Source: Ahniella affigens (GTDB taxonomy: Bacteria; Pseudomonadota; Gammaproteobacteria; Xanthomonadales; Ahniellaceae). Taken from it: a stretch of 64,000 nucleotides of DNA. The DNA is taken from positions 992,001 through 1,056,000 of the forward strand of contig NZ_CP027860.1 in NCBI RefSeq assembly GCF_003015185.1, read 5' to 3'. Numbering within the stretch: the stretch's first letter is position 1; each line of letters opens with the position of its first letter. Positions 52,489 through 58,152 of the stretch are shown here, in pieces. A program made the translations under genes and the position numbers. Under the pieces are notes generated by a model. It made no database searches. It was not told where the DNA came from and saw only the letters and a list, made by a program, of their open reading frames with translations.

Positions 52489-53259
52489 ATGACTGACATC
52501 GACGAGACAAAACCCAAACCCCGGCACCCTGGGATTTACCTGCTGCCCAACCTGTTCACCACCCTGGGCATGCTTGGCGGGTTTTACGCCATTGTTTCGG
52601 CCTTTAGTGGGCACTACATCGAGGCTGCAATCGCGGTCTTCGTAGCCGGATTGCTGGATGGTATCGACGGCCGCGTGGCGCGTCTGACGAATACGCAGAG
52701 CGATTTCGGGGTGCAATACGACTCCCTGGCCGATCTCGTCAGCTTCGGCTTGGCACCCGCACTGGTGATGTACTCGTGGTCGTTGTCGAATCTGAAAAAT
52801 TATGGCCCGATTGTCGGCAAGATCGGCTGGACGGTTGCGTTCGTTTACGCCGCCTGTGCGGCGATGCGCCTGGCCCGCTTCAACACCCAGGTCGGCGTGA
52901 TCGATAAGCGCTATTTTCAGGGCTTGGCAAGCCCGGCTGCGGCCGGCCTGATGATGAGCTATGTGTGGACCATGAATGACCACGACGTATCGGGCGCCAC
53001 GATGGCATTCGTGTCGTTGGGCGTCACGTTGTGTGCGGCGCTGCTGATGATCAGCAAGCTCCGGTATTTCAGCTTCAAGTCAAAACCCGAGAGCGAGAAG
53101 GTGCCGTTTTTGGTCCTGCCGATTCTGGTTGGCGTCATCGTGGCGCTCGTGATTGACACGCCGCGCGTGCTGTTCGGAATCGCGATTGTCTATGTGCTGT
53201 CTGGTCCGCTGTTGACGCTTTGGGGACTCAGGCATCGTCGCAAGGGGCAGCCGGGGTGA
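52489..53259 (+). CDS. pssA: CDP-diacylglycerol-serine O-phosphatidyltransferase
   Basis: This 256-residue membrane enzyme carries the CDP-alcohol phosphotransferase motif DGIDGRVARLTNTQSDFGVQYDSLADL (D-G-x2-A-R-x8-G-x3-D-x3-D, broken for description) in its first third. Several transmembrane segments follow, and the C-terminus is basic (RHRRKGQPG). It makes phosphatidylserine, the precursor of phosphatidylethanolamine. It is first in a tightly coupled operon with the partner-switching genes and the MlaE/MlaF transporter; its stop overlaps the GTG of the phosphatase gene. Confidence 0.95.
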   Translation: MTDIDETKPKPRHPGIYLLPNLFTTLGMLGGFYAIVSAFSGHYIEAAIAVFVAGLLDGIDGRVARLTNTQSDFGVQYDSLADLVSFGLAPALVMYSWSLSNLKNYGPIVGKIGWTVAFVYAACAAMRLARFNTQVGVIDKRYFQGLASPAAAGLMMSYVWTMNDHDVSGATMAFVSLGVTLCAALLMISKLRYFSFKSKPESEKVPFLVLPILVGVIVALVIDTPRVLFGIAIVYVLSGPLLTLWGLRHRRKGQPG

Positions 53260-54521
53260 TCCCCGTTCGGCGGGAGCGATCGGCCGAGGCGGCGCCCGTG
53301 CAGCGTCCGGATCCGATTGCGCTCATTGCTGAACTCAGCCAGGCGCTGGCGCTCAGCCTCGATCTTGGCGCCACGCTGCGCCTCGCTATTGGGCGGATTG
53401 TGGACGCGCTCGATGTCGAAGCGGTATCAGTCTTCATGATCGACCCCGAAGCCGAGGTGCTGCGCTGTCTGGCGGCGCATGGCCCCGTCGATATCGTCGG
53501 AATGAGTCTGCCGGTCGATCAGGGCATTGTCGGGCGGACCTTCCAGACCCGCCAATGCCAGATGGTCGATGACACGGCTGAGGATCCCGATTTTACGGGG
53601 GCGATCGACGCGGTCACCGGGTTTCGAACCCGCTCGATGATCTCGACGCCGTTGCTCACCGCGCAAGGCGCCATCGGTGTCCTGCAAGCCGTCAACAAGC
53701 GCGGCTGGCAGCGCTTTGACCTCGAAGATCGCGATCTGCTGCGTGCTTTGGCATCGCCACTCGCGCTCGCCGCGGCCAATGCGTTCATGGCGCGCTCGTT
53801 GATGGAGCAAACCCGGATTCGGCGCGAACTCGAGCTGGCTCGGCGGATGCAGCGTAGCCTCTTGCCCAAACGCCGGCGCGGCGATTTTCCGATCCTGGCG
53901 TTGCACCGGCCCGCGCGCGAGATCTCCGGCGACTTTTACGAATACTTCGATTTGCCAGACGGCCGCATCGCGTTTGCGATGGGCGACGTGGCCGGCAAGG
54001 GCTTGGATGCCGCGTTCCTGATGGTTCGCTGCGCGAGCTTGCTGCGCTGGACTGGCAAAGAAGGGCTGCCGCCTTCGGCTTGGCTTGCCCGTGTCAATCG
54101 CGAATTGTGCGAAAGCATGCAGGGTGGCAGTTTTGTCTGCGCGGTGGCGGGTCTGTTCGACCCGGAGACGCAAGAGGTCCATTGGTCGAATGCGGGGCTG
54201 CCATCGTTGATTCGTATTGACGCCGATCGACAGGTTCAGCAGTTTCGCGCGGAAGGACCGCCGCTTGGCATTCTCGCCGATATGGATTTTCCGGAACAGC
54301 GCTGCCACCTGCGTCATGCGAGTCTCTATCTGTTTTCTGATGGCGTCACCGACGCGCGCGATGCGGATGGCAACATGCTTGGCGTCGATGGCGCGGTGAC
54401 AATGATTCGGAACCAGCAAGGCATTCAGCGGCCACAATCACGCCTGCGCCGCATTGCCTCCGAACTGCGCCGCCTGCAGCTCAGTGATGACACCACGCTG
54501 ATGTTGATCGAGGGGTCATGA
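53256..54521 (+). CDS. GAF-SpoIIE (RsbU/PP2C-type) phosphatase
   Basis: This 421-residue protein has a GAF domain (about 30-190, with QAVNKRGWQRFDLEDRDLLRALA) and a SpoIIE phosphatase domain (about 215-421). The latter has RRMQRSLLP, REISGDFYEYFDLPDGRIAFAMGDVAGKG (metal Asp-Gly) and LFSDGVTDARDADG. This family dephosphorylates SpoIIAA-type STAS proteins, acting as the input arm of partner switches. The GTG at 53256 overlaps the pssA stop (GTGA); an upstream TTG (53220) would start inside pssA. It is followed directly by the kinase gene (ATGA overlap). Confidence 0.9.
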   Translation: MIPVRRERSAEAAPVQRPDPIALIAELSQALALSLDLGATLRLAIGRIVDALDVEAVSVFMIDPEAEVLRCLAAHGPVDIVGMSLPVDQGIVGRTFQTRQCQMVDDTAEDPDFTGAIDAVTGFRTRSMISTPLLTAQGAIGVLQAVNKRGWQRFDLEDRDLLRALASPLALAAANAFMARSLMEQTRIRRELELARRMQRSLLPKRRRGDFPILALHRPAREISGDFYEYFDLPDGRIAFAMGDVAGKGLDAAFLMVRCASLLRWTGKEGLPPSAWLARVNRELCESMQGGSFVCAVAGLFDPETQEVHWSNAGLPSLIRIDADRQVQQFRAEGPPLGILADMDFPEQRCHLRHASLYLFSDGVTDARDADGNMLGVDGAVTMIRNQQGIQRPQSRLRRIASELRRLQLSDDTTLMLIEGS

Positions 54522-54979
54522 GCGCACCGGCCTTGCTCCGCTACCGCTTTGCAGCCCGCGCCGAAGCCTTGGCTGACATGCGGCATGCGCTCAAGTCCAG
54601 TCTGAAGGCCAAAGCCGTGTCGGACGCCGAGATCACCCGCCTCGTACTGGCGGTCGATGAAGCGGCGAGCAATATCATCAGGCATGCGTACCGCCAGTGT
54701 ACGCCGGGCGAAATCGAACTGACGCTGACACGTGTGCGCGGCAAACTGCGTTTTCGGCTACGCGACTACGCGCCGCCTGTAGACAGCAAGTGCGTGAAGC
54801 CGAGGAATCTGGATGAGTGCCGGCCCGGTGGCTTGGGCATCAACCTGATTGATGACATCATGGACCGCTGGCGGTTGCGGGCGCTCAAGAAGCGCTGTGG
54901 CAACGTGCTGGTGATGTTCAAACGCCTGACCCAGGTGCGGGTCAGCAGCAGGAGCAAGCATGGATCGCGGGATCGTTGA
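54518..54979 (+). CDS. RsbW/SpoIIAB-like anti-sigma regulatory kinase
   Basis: This 153-residue protein has the GHKL ATPase N-box (AVDEAASNIIRHAY, Glu48 and Asn52), the G1 (RDYAPPVD) and G2 (RPGGLGINLIDDIMD) boxes and no transmembrane segment. RsbW-type kinases phosphorylate STAS antagonists on a Ser. The ATG overlaps the phosphatase stop, and the C-terminal 20 bases overlap the start of the STAS gene. Confidence 0.9.
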   Translation: MSAPALLRYRFAARAEALADMRHALKSSLKAKAVSDAEITRLVLAVDEAASNIIRHAYRQCTPGEIELTLTRVRGKLRFRLRDYAPPVDSKCVKPRNLDECRPGGLGINLIDDIMDRWRLRALKKRCGNVLVMFKRLTQVRVSSRSKHGSRDR

Positions 54980-55277
54980 ATCAAAGCATGGTGTGTTTGG
55001 CATCCTCGATGTGCGCGGGGAGGTCGATCTGTCCTGGTCGCAGGAGTTGCGCGGCGCGGTACTGAAAGCGCTGCAGCAGCACGATGCGTTGGCCGTGCGC
55101 CTGGCGGCGGTGGATTACATCGACTCGTCCGGCATCGCCGCGCTGGTTGAGGGGTTCCAGCAGGCTCGCGGCAAGCAGCAACCTTTCATTTTGCTGACGC
55201 CGAGTCCGAGTGTGCGCGCTGTGCTCGAGTTGGCGCGGCTTGATCGGGTCTTTCAGATTCGGGAGCATCTGGACTGA
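54960..55277 (+). CDS. STAS-domain protein, SpoIIAA-like, in MlaB position
   Basis: This 105-residue single STAS domain has VDYIDSSGIAALVEG, in which Ser57 corresponds to the phosphorylated Ser of SpoIIAA/RsbV by motif. It is transcribed with a SpoIIE phosphatase and RsbW kinase upstream and an MlaE permease and MlaF ATPase downstream (2 bp gap). E. coli MlaB is likewise a STAS protein that binds MlaF. The protein could therefore be an MlaB whose activity is set by phosphorylation, or an anti-sigma antagonist that merely sits in the same operon. Confidence 0.88.
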   Translation: MDRGIVESKHGVFGILDVRGEVDLSWSQELRGAVLKALQQHDALAVRLAAVDYIDSSGIAALVEGFQQARGKQQPFILLTPSPSVRAVLELARLDRVFQIREHLD

Positions 55278-55279
55278 GC

Positions 55280-56071
55280 ATGCTGGCACCAACCTTAGAC
55301 CGCATCGGACGTCGCACGGTTGCCGCAATCGGTGGTCTGGGGTATGGCGCCAGCGTGTTGGTCGAGAGTGTCTATTACCTGACCTTCGGCCGGTTCCGGG
55401 GGCAGCGCGTGCGTGCTTCGGCAATTTTCGAGCAGATGCGCGTTATCGGTGTGGACGCGGTCCCCATTGTGAGTTTGCTGAGTATTACCGTTGGCCTGAT
55501 GCTCGCGATCCAGTTCATCTCGGCGCTGCGCGACTTTGGTGCCGAGACGGGCGTAATTATCGCAATTGCCAAATCGATCACCCGCGAGTTCGGCGTGCTG
55601 ATCACCGGCATCTTGATCGCTGGTCGGTCCGGGTCGGCGTTGGCCGCGCGGATTGGCTCGATGACCGTGTCGCAGGAGGTTGATGCCCTGGCGGTCATGG
55701 GCGTGGACCCGGTGCGGTATCTGGCCGCGCCAGCGCTTGCTGCGCTCCTGATCATGATGCCCTGCCTGACGTTGCTCGCCGACGCGGTGGCGATACTTGG
55801 TTCGGGGCTCTACGCTGGCCCGAAGCTCGATATGAGTCTCTACAACTATTTGCAGCAGACCCTAGAACTGATCAAGCCGCGTGATCTGCTGGAGGGCCTT
55901 GGCAAGAGCGTGGTCTTTGCAATTCTCATCACGCTGGTCGGCGTGTGCACCGGCTTTTCGGTCAGCGGTGGCGCCGAAGGCGTTGGCCGGGCCACGACGC
56001 GCGCGGTGGTCTGGTCGATCACGGCGATCATCATTGCCGATATGGCCTTCAGCTTCTTCCTGAATCGGTGA
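55280..56071 (+). CDS. mlaE: MlaE-type ABC transporter permease
   Basis: This 263-residue membrane protein has the MlaE hallmarks: VIGVDAVPIVSLLSITVGLMLAIQF, the long VSQEVDALAVMGVDPVRYLAAP coupling loop and the C-terminal GVCTGFSVSGGAEGVGRATTRAVVWSI. It moves phospholipid between the membranes together with an MCE subunit and ATPase. It is separated from the STAS gene by 2 bp and from the ATPase gene by 4 bp. The symbol denotes family membership. Confidence 0.93.
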   Translation: MLAPTLDRIGRRTVAAIGGLGYGASVLVESVYYLTFGRFRGQRVRASAIFEQMRVIGVDAVPIVSLLSITVGLMLAIQFISALRDFGAETGVIIAIAKSITREFGVLITGILIAGRSGSALAARIGSMTVSQEVDALAVMGVDPVRYLAAPALAALLIMMPCLTLLADAVAILGSGLYAGPKLDMSLYNYLQQTLELIKPRDLLEGLGKSVVFAILITLVGVCTGFSVSGGAEGVGRATTRAVVWSITAIIIADMAFSFFLNR

Positions 56072-56075
56072 GGCC

Positions 56076-56885
56076 ATGGCAGACGCAGAAACTCCGGTCA
56101 TCGAAGTGAAAGGCTTGGAGGCCTACTACGGGCGACGACGCATCCTGAAAAGCGTCGACTTCAGCGTCAACCGTGGCGAAGTGCGCGTCATCATGGGCGG
56201 CTCAGGTTCGGGCAAAAGCACGTTGCTTCGGCATCTGATTGGTTTGAATCGTCCGGCCGCTGGCCACGTGCGGGTCTTGGGCATTGATCTGGTCGAGGCG
56301 GGGACGGCAGAGTATCTGGCCTTGCGCAGGCAGATCGGCGTATCGTTTCAAGGCGGCGCCCTGATCACGTCGCTTGATGTCGAGGACAATGTGGCGCTGC
56401 CTCTGCGGGAGCATTACCCGGAGTTGGACGACAACACCGTCCGCATCATGGCCCGTCTGAAACTCGAAATCGTCAATCTGGGCGGGTTCCAACACTTGAT
56501 GCCGTCGCAGTTATCCGGAGGCATGATCAAGCGTGCCGCGCTCGCGCGGGCGATCGTCATGGATCCCAAGTTGCTCTTTTTTGACGAGCCATCGGCCGGG
56601 CTTGATCCGGTGGTCTCGGCCGAACTCGACGAATTGATTCTGAAGTTGCGTGATGCGTTGCGCATGACCATTGTGGTGGTCACGCATGAGTTGGAGAGTG
56701 CCTTTCGGATTGCCGACACCATCACCGTCCTCGATCACGGCGACATTCTGATCAGCGGTACGGTCGATGATGTCCGGAACAGCCCGCTCGAACGGGTGCA
56801 GGACTTGTTGAATCGACGTCCACGTGACCTGGTGATCGATGCCGATGAGTATCTTCGTCGGCTGACCGAAGAGGACGCCACATGA
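56076..56885 (+). CDS. mlaF: MlaF-type ABC transporter ATPase
   Basis: This 269-residue ATPase has Walker A GGSGSGKST, Q-loop SFQGGALI, the ABC signature LSGGMIKRAALARAI, Walker B LLFFDEPSAGLDP and the switch VTHELE. It is the ATPase partner of the upstream MlaE permease. No MCE (MlaD) gene follows: only an 8-codon frame (56882-56908) and then the MgtC/DUF4010 gene. The MCE subunit is probably elsewhere, as the left edge of the window shows one in another operon. Confidence 0.94.
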   Translation: MADAETPVIEVKGLEAYYGRRRILKSVDFSVNRGEVRVIMGGSGSGKSTLLRHLIGLNRPAAGHVRVLGIDLVEAGTAEYLALRRQIGVSFQGGALITSLDVEDNVALPLREHYPELDDNTVRIMARLKLEIVNLGGFQHLMPSQLSGGMIKRAALARAIVMDPKLLFFDEPSAGLDPVVSAELDELILKLRDALRMTIVVVTHELESAFRIADTITVLDHGDILISGTVDDVRNSPLERVQDLLNRRPRDLVIDADEYLRRLTEEDAT

Positions 56886-56904: not shown

Positions 56905-58152
56905 ATGATGCCGATCGCCATCGATCGGGATCTGTTAATCGGCCTGGGCGTGGCGCTCGCGGTGGGCCTATTGATCGGTGTCGAACGCGAGCAGCGCCGC
57001 GTCACGCACCCGAACTTGGTCGCTGGCGTGCGGACGTTTGCCCTGCTGTCGTTGTCGGGTGCGCTGTGCAGTTTGCTCGGCGTCGCCATGCTGACTGCCG
57101 GGGCGCTCTTTGTCGCGGCGGCTGCCTTGATCAGCTACATCCGCATTCGAACTGATGATCCAGGTCTCACCACCGAAGTGTCGATGTTTGCCGTGTACGT
57201 ACTCGGCGCGCTCGCCCTGCAAGCGCCCGTGCTGACTGCCGCGCTGGCGGTGGCGGTAGCGTTGCTTCTGGCCATGAAAACGCATTTGCATGCGTTCTCG
57301 CGGGAGCTGCTCAGCGCCGAAGAACTTCGCGACGGTCTGCTGCTGATTGCTTCGGCTTTGATCGTGCTGCCGTTGTTGCCCGACCATGCCGTCGATCCGT
57401 ATGGTGTGCTGAACCCGTTCAAGGTTTGGCGTGTCGTCGTTTTGGTCATGGCGATCAATGCGCTCGGCTATGTGGCGCAGCGGATGCTCGGCGCCCGCTT
57501 GGGTTTGCCGATCTCCGGATTTGTCGGCGGGTTTGTGTCGTCCACCGCAACCATCGGTGCCATGGGGCAGCGTGCGAAGGCGCACCCGGACCAACGCCGT
57601 TCCTGCGTGGCCGCCGCTGCGGTGTCGAACGTCGCGACCATCATCCAGATGGGCCTGGTATTGATCGCTCTGGCGCCGAATTTGTTCCAGCACCTGAGCC
57701 GGCCCATGCTGATCGCAGGGCTCGCAACCCTGCTTGCGGCGGCGATGACTGGTCTTCATGCATGGCGTGAGCCGGCGGGCGAGGGGGCTGCCATGCGGGG
57801 TCGCCCGTTCGAGTTGAAACAAGCGCTACTGTTTGCGGCGCTGGTGACCGGCATCTTGTTCACGTCCGCGTTGCTGGTGCGTTGGTTTGGCGACAAAGGT
57901 GTAATGCTCGCGGCGGGCTTCGCCGGTTTCGCCGATGTGCACGCGGCGGCTGCCTCCGTGGCGCAAATGTTGTTTGCAGAGCAGATCAGTCTGGACCAGG
58001 CCGAATGGGCCGTGTTGATTGGGCTGGTCTGCAACACGGTCAGCAAGACCGTAGTCGCGTTTGCGACAGGTGGTCGCGCATTTGCCTGGATGCTGATGCC
58101 GATTCTGATCGCGCTATTGCTGAGCTTCAGTCTGACGATTTGGCTTTGGTAG
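56905..58152 (+). CDS. MgtC/SapB family protein with DUF4010
   Basis: This 415-residue membrane protein has the N-terminal MgtC-like part (RDLLIGLGVALAVGLLIGVERE, then VAGVRTFALLSLSGALCSLLG) and a C-terminal DUF4010 membrane half with GFVGGFVSSTATIGAMGQRAK and FAGFADVHAAAASVAQM. The ion or metabolite is unknown. It follows MlaF by 20 bp in the same direction and overlaps the convergent binding-protein gene by 26 bp at their 3' ends. Confidence 0.9.
   Translation: MMPIAIDRDLLIGLGVALAVGLLIGVEREQRRVTHPNLVAGVRTFALLSLSGALCSLLGVAMLTAGALFVAAAALISYIRIRTDDPGLTTEVSMFAVYVLGALALQAPVLTAALAVAVALLLAMKTHLHAFSRELLSAEELRDGLLLIASALIVLPLLPDHAVDPYGVLNPFKVWRVVVLVMAINALGYVAQRMLGARLGLPISGFVGGFVSSTATIGAMGQRAKAHPDQRRSCVAAAAVSNVATIIQMGLVLIALAPNLFQHLSRPMLIAGLATLLAAAMTGLHAWREPAGEGAAMRGRPFELKQALLFAALVTGILFTSALLVRWFGDKGVMLAAGFAGFADVHAAAASVAQMLFAEQISLDQAEWAVLIGLVCNTVSKTVVAFATGGRAFAWMLMPILIALLLSFSLTIWLW

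Follow-up and report, generated by a model that had tools for sequence, protein, structure and literature searches.

A phosphatase-kinase-STAS partner-switching trio linked to an MlaE-MlaF transporter in Ahniella affigens and other Gram-negative bacteria

In Escherichia coli, the STAS protein MlaB binds the ATPase MlaF of the MlaFEDB transporter through a face that contains Thr52 and through a C-terminal extension of MlaF, in which Tyr261, Leu265 and Leu266 contribute to the MlaB site; without MlaB, MlaF is lost from the complex, and a T52E substitution weakens MlaB-MlaF binding (accessible text of PMC7367683). The same text, which accompanies the MlaFB structure, calls phosphorylation control of MlaB an open question and names no kinase or phosphatase for MlaB. 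The locus described here supplies a candidate kinase and a candidate phosphatase beside a transporter of this type in dozens of genomes, and makes that question directly testable. It lies at positions 52489 to 56885, on the + strand, of a 64,000-nucleotide stretch (the window, C1:992001-1056000) of the 6.12 Mb, two-contig genome of Ahniella affigens, and consists of pssA, a GAF-SpoIIE phosphatase gene, an RsbW-like kinase gene, a STAS gene, mlaE and mlaF. We refer to phosphatase, kinase and STAS together as the trio.

The locus resembles E. coli MlaFEDB in its MlaE/MlaF core, in having a STAS protein as the proposed partner of MlaF, in the C-terminal extension of MlaF and in a site equivalent to Thr52, as far as the accessible text of PMC7367683 describes these features. 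Unlike MlaFEDB, it encodes a kinase and a phosphatase alongside, its STAS protein aligns over the whole length with RsbV and SpoIIAA, the tail of its MlaF has a different motif, and this MlaF is 32-46% identical to the 38 ordinary MlaF proteins compared. Nor does the gene content match an E. coli-type MlaFEDCB operon, as mlaD, mlaC and mlaB are not beside mlaF or mlaE and a DUF4010/MgtC-type gene follows mlaF. The closest known transporter is the Mpc (Mla-Pqi chimeric) system of Brucella abortus, which, in the available portion of its description, joins MlaE/MlaF with a long MCE protein and a PqiC-like lipoprotein, as does the full cluster in relatives of A. affigens (PMC12436622). According to the same portion, the STAS domain of Mpc is fused to the N terminus of MpcE, whereas here it is a separate protein of 105 residues, MlaE has no STAS match, and a kinase and a phosphatase are added; the word kinase is absent from the main text of the Mpc paper (PMC12436622).

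The trio itself resembles the RsbU-RsbW-RsbV and SpoIIE-SpoIIAB-SpoIIAA systems, having a phosphatase, a kinase and a STAS protein with the catalytic and acceptor residues, and similar folds for kinase and STAS. It differs from them in that no sigma factor target was found and in its proposed output, the ATPase of an ATP-binding cassette (ABC) transporter. In SiaABCD of Pseudomonas aeruginosa, a phosphatase, a kinase and a STAS-like protein act on a non-sigma effector, a diguanylate cyclase; the likeness to our locus lies in the STAS-like partner, with a transporter as the proposed effector here. The SiaB-SiaC structure 6kko was, by its title, among our structure matches. The module belongs neither to the sigma-B/F circuits nor to canonical MlaFEDCB, and is a variant of partner switching. 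A full-text search of the open PubMed Central subset found no paper linking a phosphatase-kinase-STAS trio with Mla or MCE transporters, nor any on the Sia precedent; the former is in line with a preliminary description of the window, made from the sequence alone, whose author knew of no described system of this kind.

We consider it likely that the locus encodes a partner-switching module that controls an ABC transporter of envelope lipids, with docking of the STAS protein on MlaF serving as a phospho-switch. In the proposed mechanism, unphosphorylated STAS would behave like E. coli MlaB: it would dock on MlaF proteins of this subfamily, at their helical face and C-terminal tail, so that the ATPase stays in one piece and transport remains on. 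The RsbW-like kinase would phosphorylate Ser56 of STAS, in the predicted docking face, upon which STAS would leave MlaF; the kinase may additionally hold STAS. The SpoIIE phosphatase, presumably driven by a signal received through its GAF domain (HDOD in a number of relatives), would remove the phosphate and turn transport back on. In moving its probable lipid cargo, the MlaEF core would have an MCE protein and a PqiC-like lipoprotein as partners; other lineages would use MlaD, MlaA and MlaC instead. We propose that unphosphorylated STAS is the "on" state because E. coli MlaF needs MlaB and T52E reduces binding.

The six genes are chained by overlaps and then by gaps of a few bases (Table 1), each of the six proteins has a Pfam domain above the curated cut-off, and the gene identities and place given in the preliminary description were all borne out. 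For the phosphatase, the start at TTG 53220 gives merely the longest reading, and GTG 53256 was taken as the start. The STAS protein also exceeds the NCBIfam cut-off for anti-sigma-factor antagonists (TIGR00377, 65.8 versus 53.45), MlaE falls just under its NCBIfam model (207 versus 212.2), and MlaF is far under the cut-off of the curated MlaF family (NF008809, 184.1 bits versus 441). The STAS gene had been said to sit where mlaB normally is; it precedes mlaE, whereas the ordinary operons seen have MlaB after MlaC (for example L041, L048 and L051).

Table 1. Features of the partner-switching and transporter locus (window coordinates).
Feature	Position	Strand	Evidence
pssA-like CDP-diacylglycerol--serine O-phosphatidyltransferase	52489..53259	+	PF01066 80.9 bits; TIGR00473 105, just under cut-off 107
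GAF-SpoIIE (PP2C-type) serine phosphatase	53256..54521	+	GTG start; 4-base overlap with pssA stop; GAF_2 52.6 and SpoIIE (PF07228) 145.7 bits
GAF domain of the phosphatase	about 53358-53771	+	
SpoIIE domain of the phosphatase	about 53955-54512	+	
RsbW/SpoIIAB-like serine kinase	54518..54979	+	HATPase_c_2 (PF13581) 88.5 bits; 4-base overlap with phosphatase
Stand-alone STAS, RsbV/SpoIIAA-like, 105 residues, proposed MlaF docking partner	54960..55277	+	PF01740 57.3 bits; 20-base overlap with kinase
Ser56 codon, predicted phospho-acceptor (D55-S56-S57-G58)	55125..55127	+	Alignment to SpoIIAA 1th8/1tid
MlaE-family lipid ABC permease, 263 aa	55280..56071	+	PF02405 230.5 bits; 2-base gap after STAS
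MlaF-like ABC ATPase, distinct trio-associated subfamily	56076..56885	+	PF00005 102.1 bits; 4-base gap after mlaE
EYLRRLT motif in the C-terminal extension of MlaF, a proposed docking tail for STAS	56847..56867	+	[YF][LMIV]xRL pattern
DUF4010/MgtC-type membrane gene	56905-58152		19 bases past mlaF

The gene order was conserved well beyond A. affigens. An order-level sample comprised 41 genomes (A. affigens and 40 relatives), of which 34 had some match to the phosphatase. The ortholog was full-length in 21, A. affigens among them, with 46-63% identity for the remaining 20. The run pssA-phosphatase-kinase-STAS-MlaE was unbroken in 19 of these 21 genomes. In G016 and G034, pssA-phosphatase-kinase was at one site and STAS-MlaE-MlaF-MCE-lipoprotein at another, and four more Marinicella-type genomes (L243-L246) had the same STAS-transporter half.

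Named genomes were scanned with an alignment as the query, a single-sequence query having matched nothing, and the loci considered were the best 80 of 472 relatives. The kinase followed the phosphatase in 80/80 of these loci, with STAS in 65, MlaE in 61 and MlaF in 57, and the run extended to the MCE and lipoprotein genes in 45/80. Fifteen loci were without STAS: 14 were pssA-phosphatase-kinase loci (two of them ending at a contig end) and one was L118. Four others had STAS and no MlaE in the stretch (L116, L122, L123 and L125). The species represented included Aquimonas voraii, Tahibacter, Rudaea, Dokdonella and Marinicella; the remaining loci came mostly from metagenome-assembled genomes titled Lysobacterales or Gammaproteobacteria, and three (L117, L119, L124) carried titles of alpha- or betaproteobacterial groups. 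In L117 and L119 a tandem pair of STAS genes stood between kinase and MlaE. The named loci overlap the other genome sets (L123, for example, is from G141), and the sets are not additive.

The class survey covered 370 genomes of the class that were at least 90% complete, with gene surroundings annotated by profile searches. Of these, 31 had the GAF phosphatase in full length (at least 415 bits) and 43 had this MlaE type; in 39 of the 43, STAS and kinase were upstream of MlaE on the same strand. The exceptions were G097, G303 and G111, with no STAS or kinase there, and G119, which was cut by the contig; the trio of G111 was elsewhere, beside an MlaA/C-type operon (L177). The phosphatase adjoined the kinase in 38 of the 39 (divergently in G228), the contig of G198 stopping before it. 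A draw across the phylum found trio-type MlaF in 8 of 397 genomes. Three of the eight lie outside the class: G419 (L263), with the entire seven-gene order, and G492 and G452, in whose examined stretches no trio was seen. The order, whose conservation in related genomes the preliminary description had left to be searched for, is thus clearly not unique to this genome, and a unique or chance cluster was rejected because the order recurs across the class.

Nine loci of the class had the same trio with a second type of transporter. Two of these (L190 and L237) read phosphatase-kinase-STAS-MlaF-MlaE-MlaD-MlaA-MlaC, and four (L177, L183, L185, L186) read phosphatase-kinase-STAS-MlaE-MlaD-MlaA-MlaC with MlaF convergent; MlaA and MlaC were confirmed by Pfam in one second-type locus, L190. 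The last three (L188, L189, L191) read phosphatase-kinase-STAS-MlaF, with no mlaE in the L188 and L189 stretches and L191 cut by the contig. In G059, which holds L188, MlaE-MlaD-MlaA-MlaC was on a separate contig with no MlaF within 10 kb (L235). G072 showed one trio-type MlaF in the neighbourhood of two permease sets, one with MCE and lipoprotein (L156) and one with MlaD, MlaA and MlaC (L234), possibly as a shared ATPase, although no genome-wide search for a second MlaF was made.

To describe the relationships of these proteins we used four sets of MlaF: 50 linked to the trio with the MCE/lipoprotein type (a hand-picked spread), 10 from the MlaA/C type (including L236, although the trio of its genome, G078, is unlinked), 38 ordinary and five fused-STAS (L033, L040, L042, L043, L052; a label that comes from reading L033 by eye and from long open frames, not from a domain match). 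The MlaE set for the MlaA/C type had nine rows, L234 and L235 included, mostly from the same loci. MlaF of the MlaA/C type had a median identity of 65% (57-76) to the MCE/lipoprotein-type set and 38% (33-43) to the ordinary set, whereas the MlaE proteins of the same type were 32% (27-38) identical to the former and 43% (36-49) to the latter. In the MlaF tree with class-wide controls, both trio-linked sets and two STAS-less rows were on one side of a branch with a support of 100; in the MlaE tree, this was true of the MlaA/C-type and ordinary proteins together. By these comparisons MlaF goes with the switch and MlaE with the type of transporter. MlaF following the trio is what would be expected if MlaF were the target of the switch, and the proposed STAS-MlaF link is strengthened because it is MlaF, not MlaE, that goes with the trio between the two transporter types.

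The C-terminal tail of MlaF separated the sets in the same way. The pattern [YF][LMIV]xRL, written after the alignment had been viewed, occurred near the C terminus in 47/50 MCE/lipoprotein-type, 10/10 MlaA/C-type and 2/2 STAS-less MlaF proteins, and in 0/38 ordinary and 0/5 fused-STAS proteins. Conversely, PFxY was present in 32 of the 38 ordinary MlaF proteins and in 0/67 others. The tail was looser where the trio was unlinked, and absent in L249. The tail of the MlaF in L149 seemed to be drifting (DAFIERLLN). L149 and L146 (in G097 and G303), where the transporter is retained without the module STAS, are possible cases of natural loss of the switch.

Genomes in which trio and MlaF are apart were searched for trio-type MlaF under 12 handles, corresponding to 11 distinct genomes (G408 repeats G141). 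Ten of the 11 had trio-type MlaF, scoring 403-460 bits versus about 250 for ordinary MlaF. In four, STAS was beside the trio-type MlaF with kinase and phosphatase elsewhere; in the other seven, STAS was away from MlaF. Among these seven only G407 had no trio-type MlaF, and its STAS reading is truncated as well (L122). In G141, G394, G406 and G409 the trio-type MlaF headed an MlaF-MlaE-MlaD unit, in which the STAS profile, which detects ordinary MlaB only partly, found no STAS. The co-occurrence of trio and MlaF rests on the class-wide MlaE search, these 11 distinct genomes and the phylum draw.

These genomes bear on a rival idea: STAS could serve constitutively in the manner of MlaB, or not be a subunit, and the trio could have its output on some unrelated target without linkage, its tie to the transporter being co-expression only. 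Non-sigma partner switches with other outputs, such as Sia and Syp, provide precedents for such a target, no Mla gene adjoins the trio in L116, L122, L123, L125, L182, L187 and L272, and the transporter is present without the trio in G097 and G303. Nevertheless, this explanation seems to us improbable, given that six of the seven distinct genomes searched in which STAS is apart from MlaF still hold trio-type MlaF and that three arrangements, involving two types of permease, preserve the link, MlaF going with the trio.

The preliminary description had assigned the phospho-acceptor to Ser57. The SpoIIAA motif is DSSG in PDB 1th8 and DASG in the otherwise near-identical chain of 1tid, which we take to be the S58A protein, and therefore the SpoIIAA acceptor is the first Ser of D-S-S-G, which makes Ser56 the predicted acceptor in this STAS. 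Profile alignments took in every distinct module protein that reached the score limits and showed that D55, S56, S57 and G58 were kept in 119/119 STAS proteins, E48, N52, D83, G104 and G107 in 131/131 kinases, and D226, D244, D362, D411 and D412, the five Asp that presumably form the metal site, in 133/133 phosphatases. These counts leave out weaker STAS matches, among them the truncated one of L122 and, in L117 and L119, the first STAS of each pair, which scored 83-84 bits and still reads DSSG. On sequence, the trio thus has the components of a partner switch: a SpoIIE phosphatase with its five Asp, a kinase with intact ATP-binding boxes and a STAS protein with the acceptor Ser. The position of Ser56 is equivalent to that of Thr52 of E. 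coli MlaB, as discussed in the accessible text of PMC7367683.

Structure models were made of two single chains, STAS and kinase. The STAS model (predicted local distance difference test score, pLDDT, 96.6) had Z scores of 17.5 to RsbV (1.6 Å over 101 residues), 16.1 to SpoIIAA, 13.3 to P. aeruginosa MlaB and 11.4 to E. coli MlaB. For the kinase model (pLDDT 90.5), the Z scores were 17.0 to SpoIIAB and 16.6 to RsbW, its nearest structures spanning 17.0-15.6. The chains nearest to both models are from RsbV-RsbW and SpoIIAA-SpoIIAB complexes, in which the kinase binds both partners, and this would suit a classical wiring in which RsbW binds and inhibits MlaF (or MlaE) and unphosphorylated STAS captures the kinase, as RsbV frees sigma-B. 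We regard that wiring as unlikely, because the known partner of MlaF is MlaB, itself a STAS protein (accessible text of PMC7367683), because STAS is the gene adjoining mlaE or mlaF, and because in six Marinicella-type genomes STAS is with the transporter and phosphatase and kinase are with pssA.

An ordinary anti-sigma circuit, with the kinase controlling a sigma factor encoded elsewhere, is very improbable even though the proteins belong to anti-sigma factor and antagonist families, as a search of the A. affigens genome (100% complete by listing) found no SigB/F/G-type sigma factor over the TIGR02980 cut-off and its three sigma-70-like matches (139, 116 and 86 bits versus a cut-off of 234) were not near the locus, so that membership of a sigma-B/F circuit was rejected.

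A number of observations weigh against STAS docking on MlaF as the phospho-switch. G097 and G303 keep the transporter with no module STAS at 1e-12, and G492 has no module STAS in its 8.3 kb contig; the transporter can therefore do without it. Two MlaF proteins without adjacent STAS (L149, L176) still fit the tail pattern, and L066, L088 and L093 have STAS-MlaE in stretches that contain no MlaF (in L079 the contig ends there). The MlaF and MlaE trees are compatible in branching, the ordinary proteins being one-sided in both, and differ in distances only; approximately unbiased (AU) tests gave p 0.67 for MlaF and p 0.18 for MlaE, the groupings compared being compatible, and the link of MlaF to the trio rests on the identities and the tail motif, not on the AU tests. 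The modelled STAS fold is nearer to RsbV and SpoIIAA than to MlaB. Several ordinary MlaB proteins likewise keep a Ser at the acceptor site, and E. coli MlaB has Thr52 without a known kinase, as far as the accessible text of PMC7367683 goes; retention of the Ser alone therefore proves little, and we rejected it as stand-alone evidence. Finally, MlaB T52A is reported in that text to be non-functional yet MlaF-bound (PMC7367683), which does not fit the simple model.

Taken with the surveys, the docking switch would have a wider reach. Judging from gene order and protein relationships, an envelope lipid pump appears, in many Gram-negative bacteria, to be turned on and off by a dedicated kinase and phosphatase acting on the small docking protein of its motor, as has been proposed for control of this family of pumps. 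We lean, with some reserve, towards a widespread class of phospho-switched lipid transporters in which a distinct MlaF subfamily has co-evolved with the trio in two permease-MCE backgrounds, sometimes apparently with one MlaF for both, and in which interchangeable GAF or HDOD sensors would gate lipid traffic between the membranes through STAS docking. If this is true, an ABC transporter ATPase would be an output of a new kind for partner switching, and lipid traffic in the envelope would come under rapid control by signals, through sensors that can be exchanged. Genes named as anti-sigma factors or antagonists would likewise gain a function, in at least one genome without a matching sigma factor.

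Two further elements of the locus, pssA and the sensor domain, vary among loci. pssA adjoined the phosphatase in 21/21 relatives and in 61 of the 80 named loci, and in 0/55 phosphatase-bearing loci from outside the order; it is a linked neighbour in the order and in near named relatives only. In many loci the phosphatase shares only the SpoIIE half with that of A. affigens, and the front half was HDOD in 6/6 examined (L150, L152, L160, L163, L168 and L190, in which HDOD replaces GAF). Additional GAF-phosphatases without an adjacent STAS, away from the module STAS, were seen in G402, G072, G293, G078, G080 and G204 (L153, L157, L171, L180, L181, L184). The preliminary description had suggested that phospholipid synthesis, through pssA, would be under the same switch, for which the linkage outside the order gives no indication, and had named GAF as the input; GAF is present here but is not the general input. 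What stands of its interpretation overall is the tie of the trio to MlaEF, the lack of SigB/F/G and the undescribed nature of the system; Ser57, a plain Mla transporter, control through pssA and GAF as a general input do not.

In relatives, the full unit usually goes on with the gene for a long MCE protein and that for a PqiC-like lipoprotein (in L126, Pfam gave MlaD and ABC_trans_aux), and a plain Mla operon, as first described, was rejected in favor of this Mpc-like form. No MCE gene was found in the window by profile. The search found two MlaD-domain matches in the A. affigens genome. One is an MCE gene that lies with a PqiC-like lipoprotein gene at C1 about 848-849.5 kb (L192), unlinked and about 0.2 Mb away, the pair scoring 403 and 208 bits with the cluster profiles. 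We take this pair as the probable missing half of the switch-type transporter; loss of MCE in this genome was rejected upon finding it. The other match belongs to a second, Mpc-like operon just left of the window, at G000:C1:984000-995000 (L033), with an MlaE that has a STAS-like front (DSAG, by eye), an MlaF and an MCE gene; it also has a lipoprotein-like gene by eye, to which the lipoprotein profile gave no match. Downstream of mlaF, the DUF4010/MgtC-type membrane gene takes the slot that is occupied by the MCE gene in many relatives. Elsewhere in the genome, another stand-alone RsbW-like kinase gene (L194, G000:C1:3375083) adjoins what by eye is a Rieske-type oxygenase gene.

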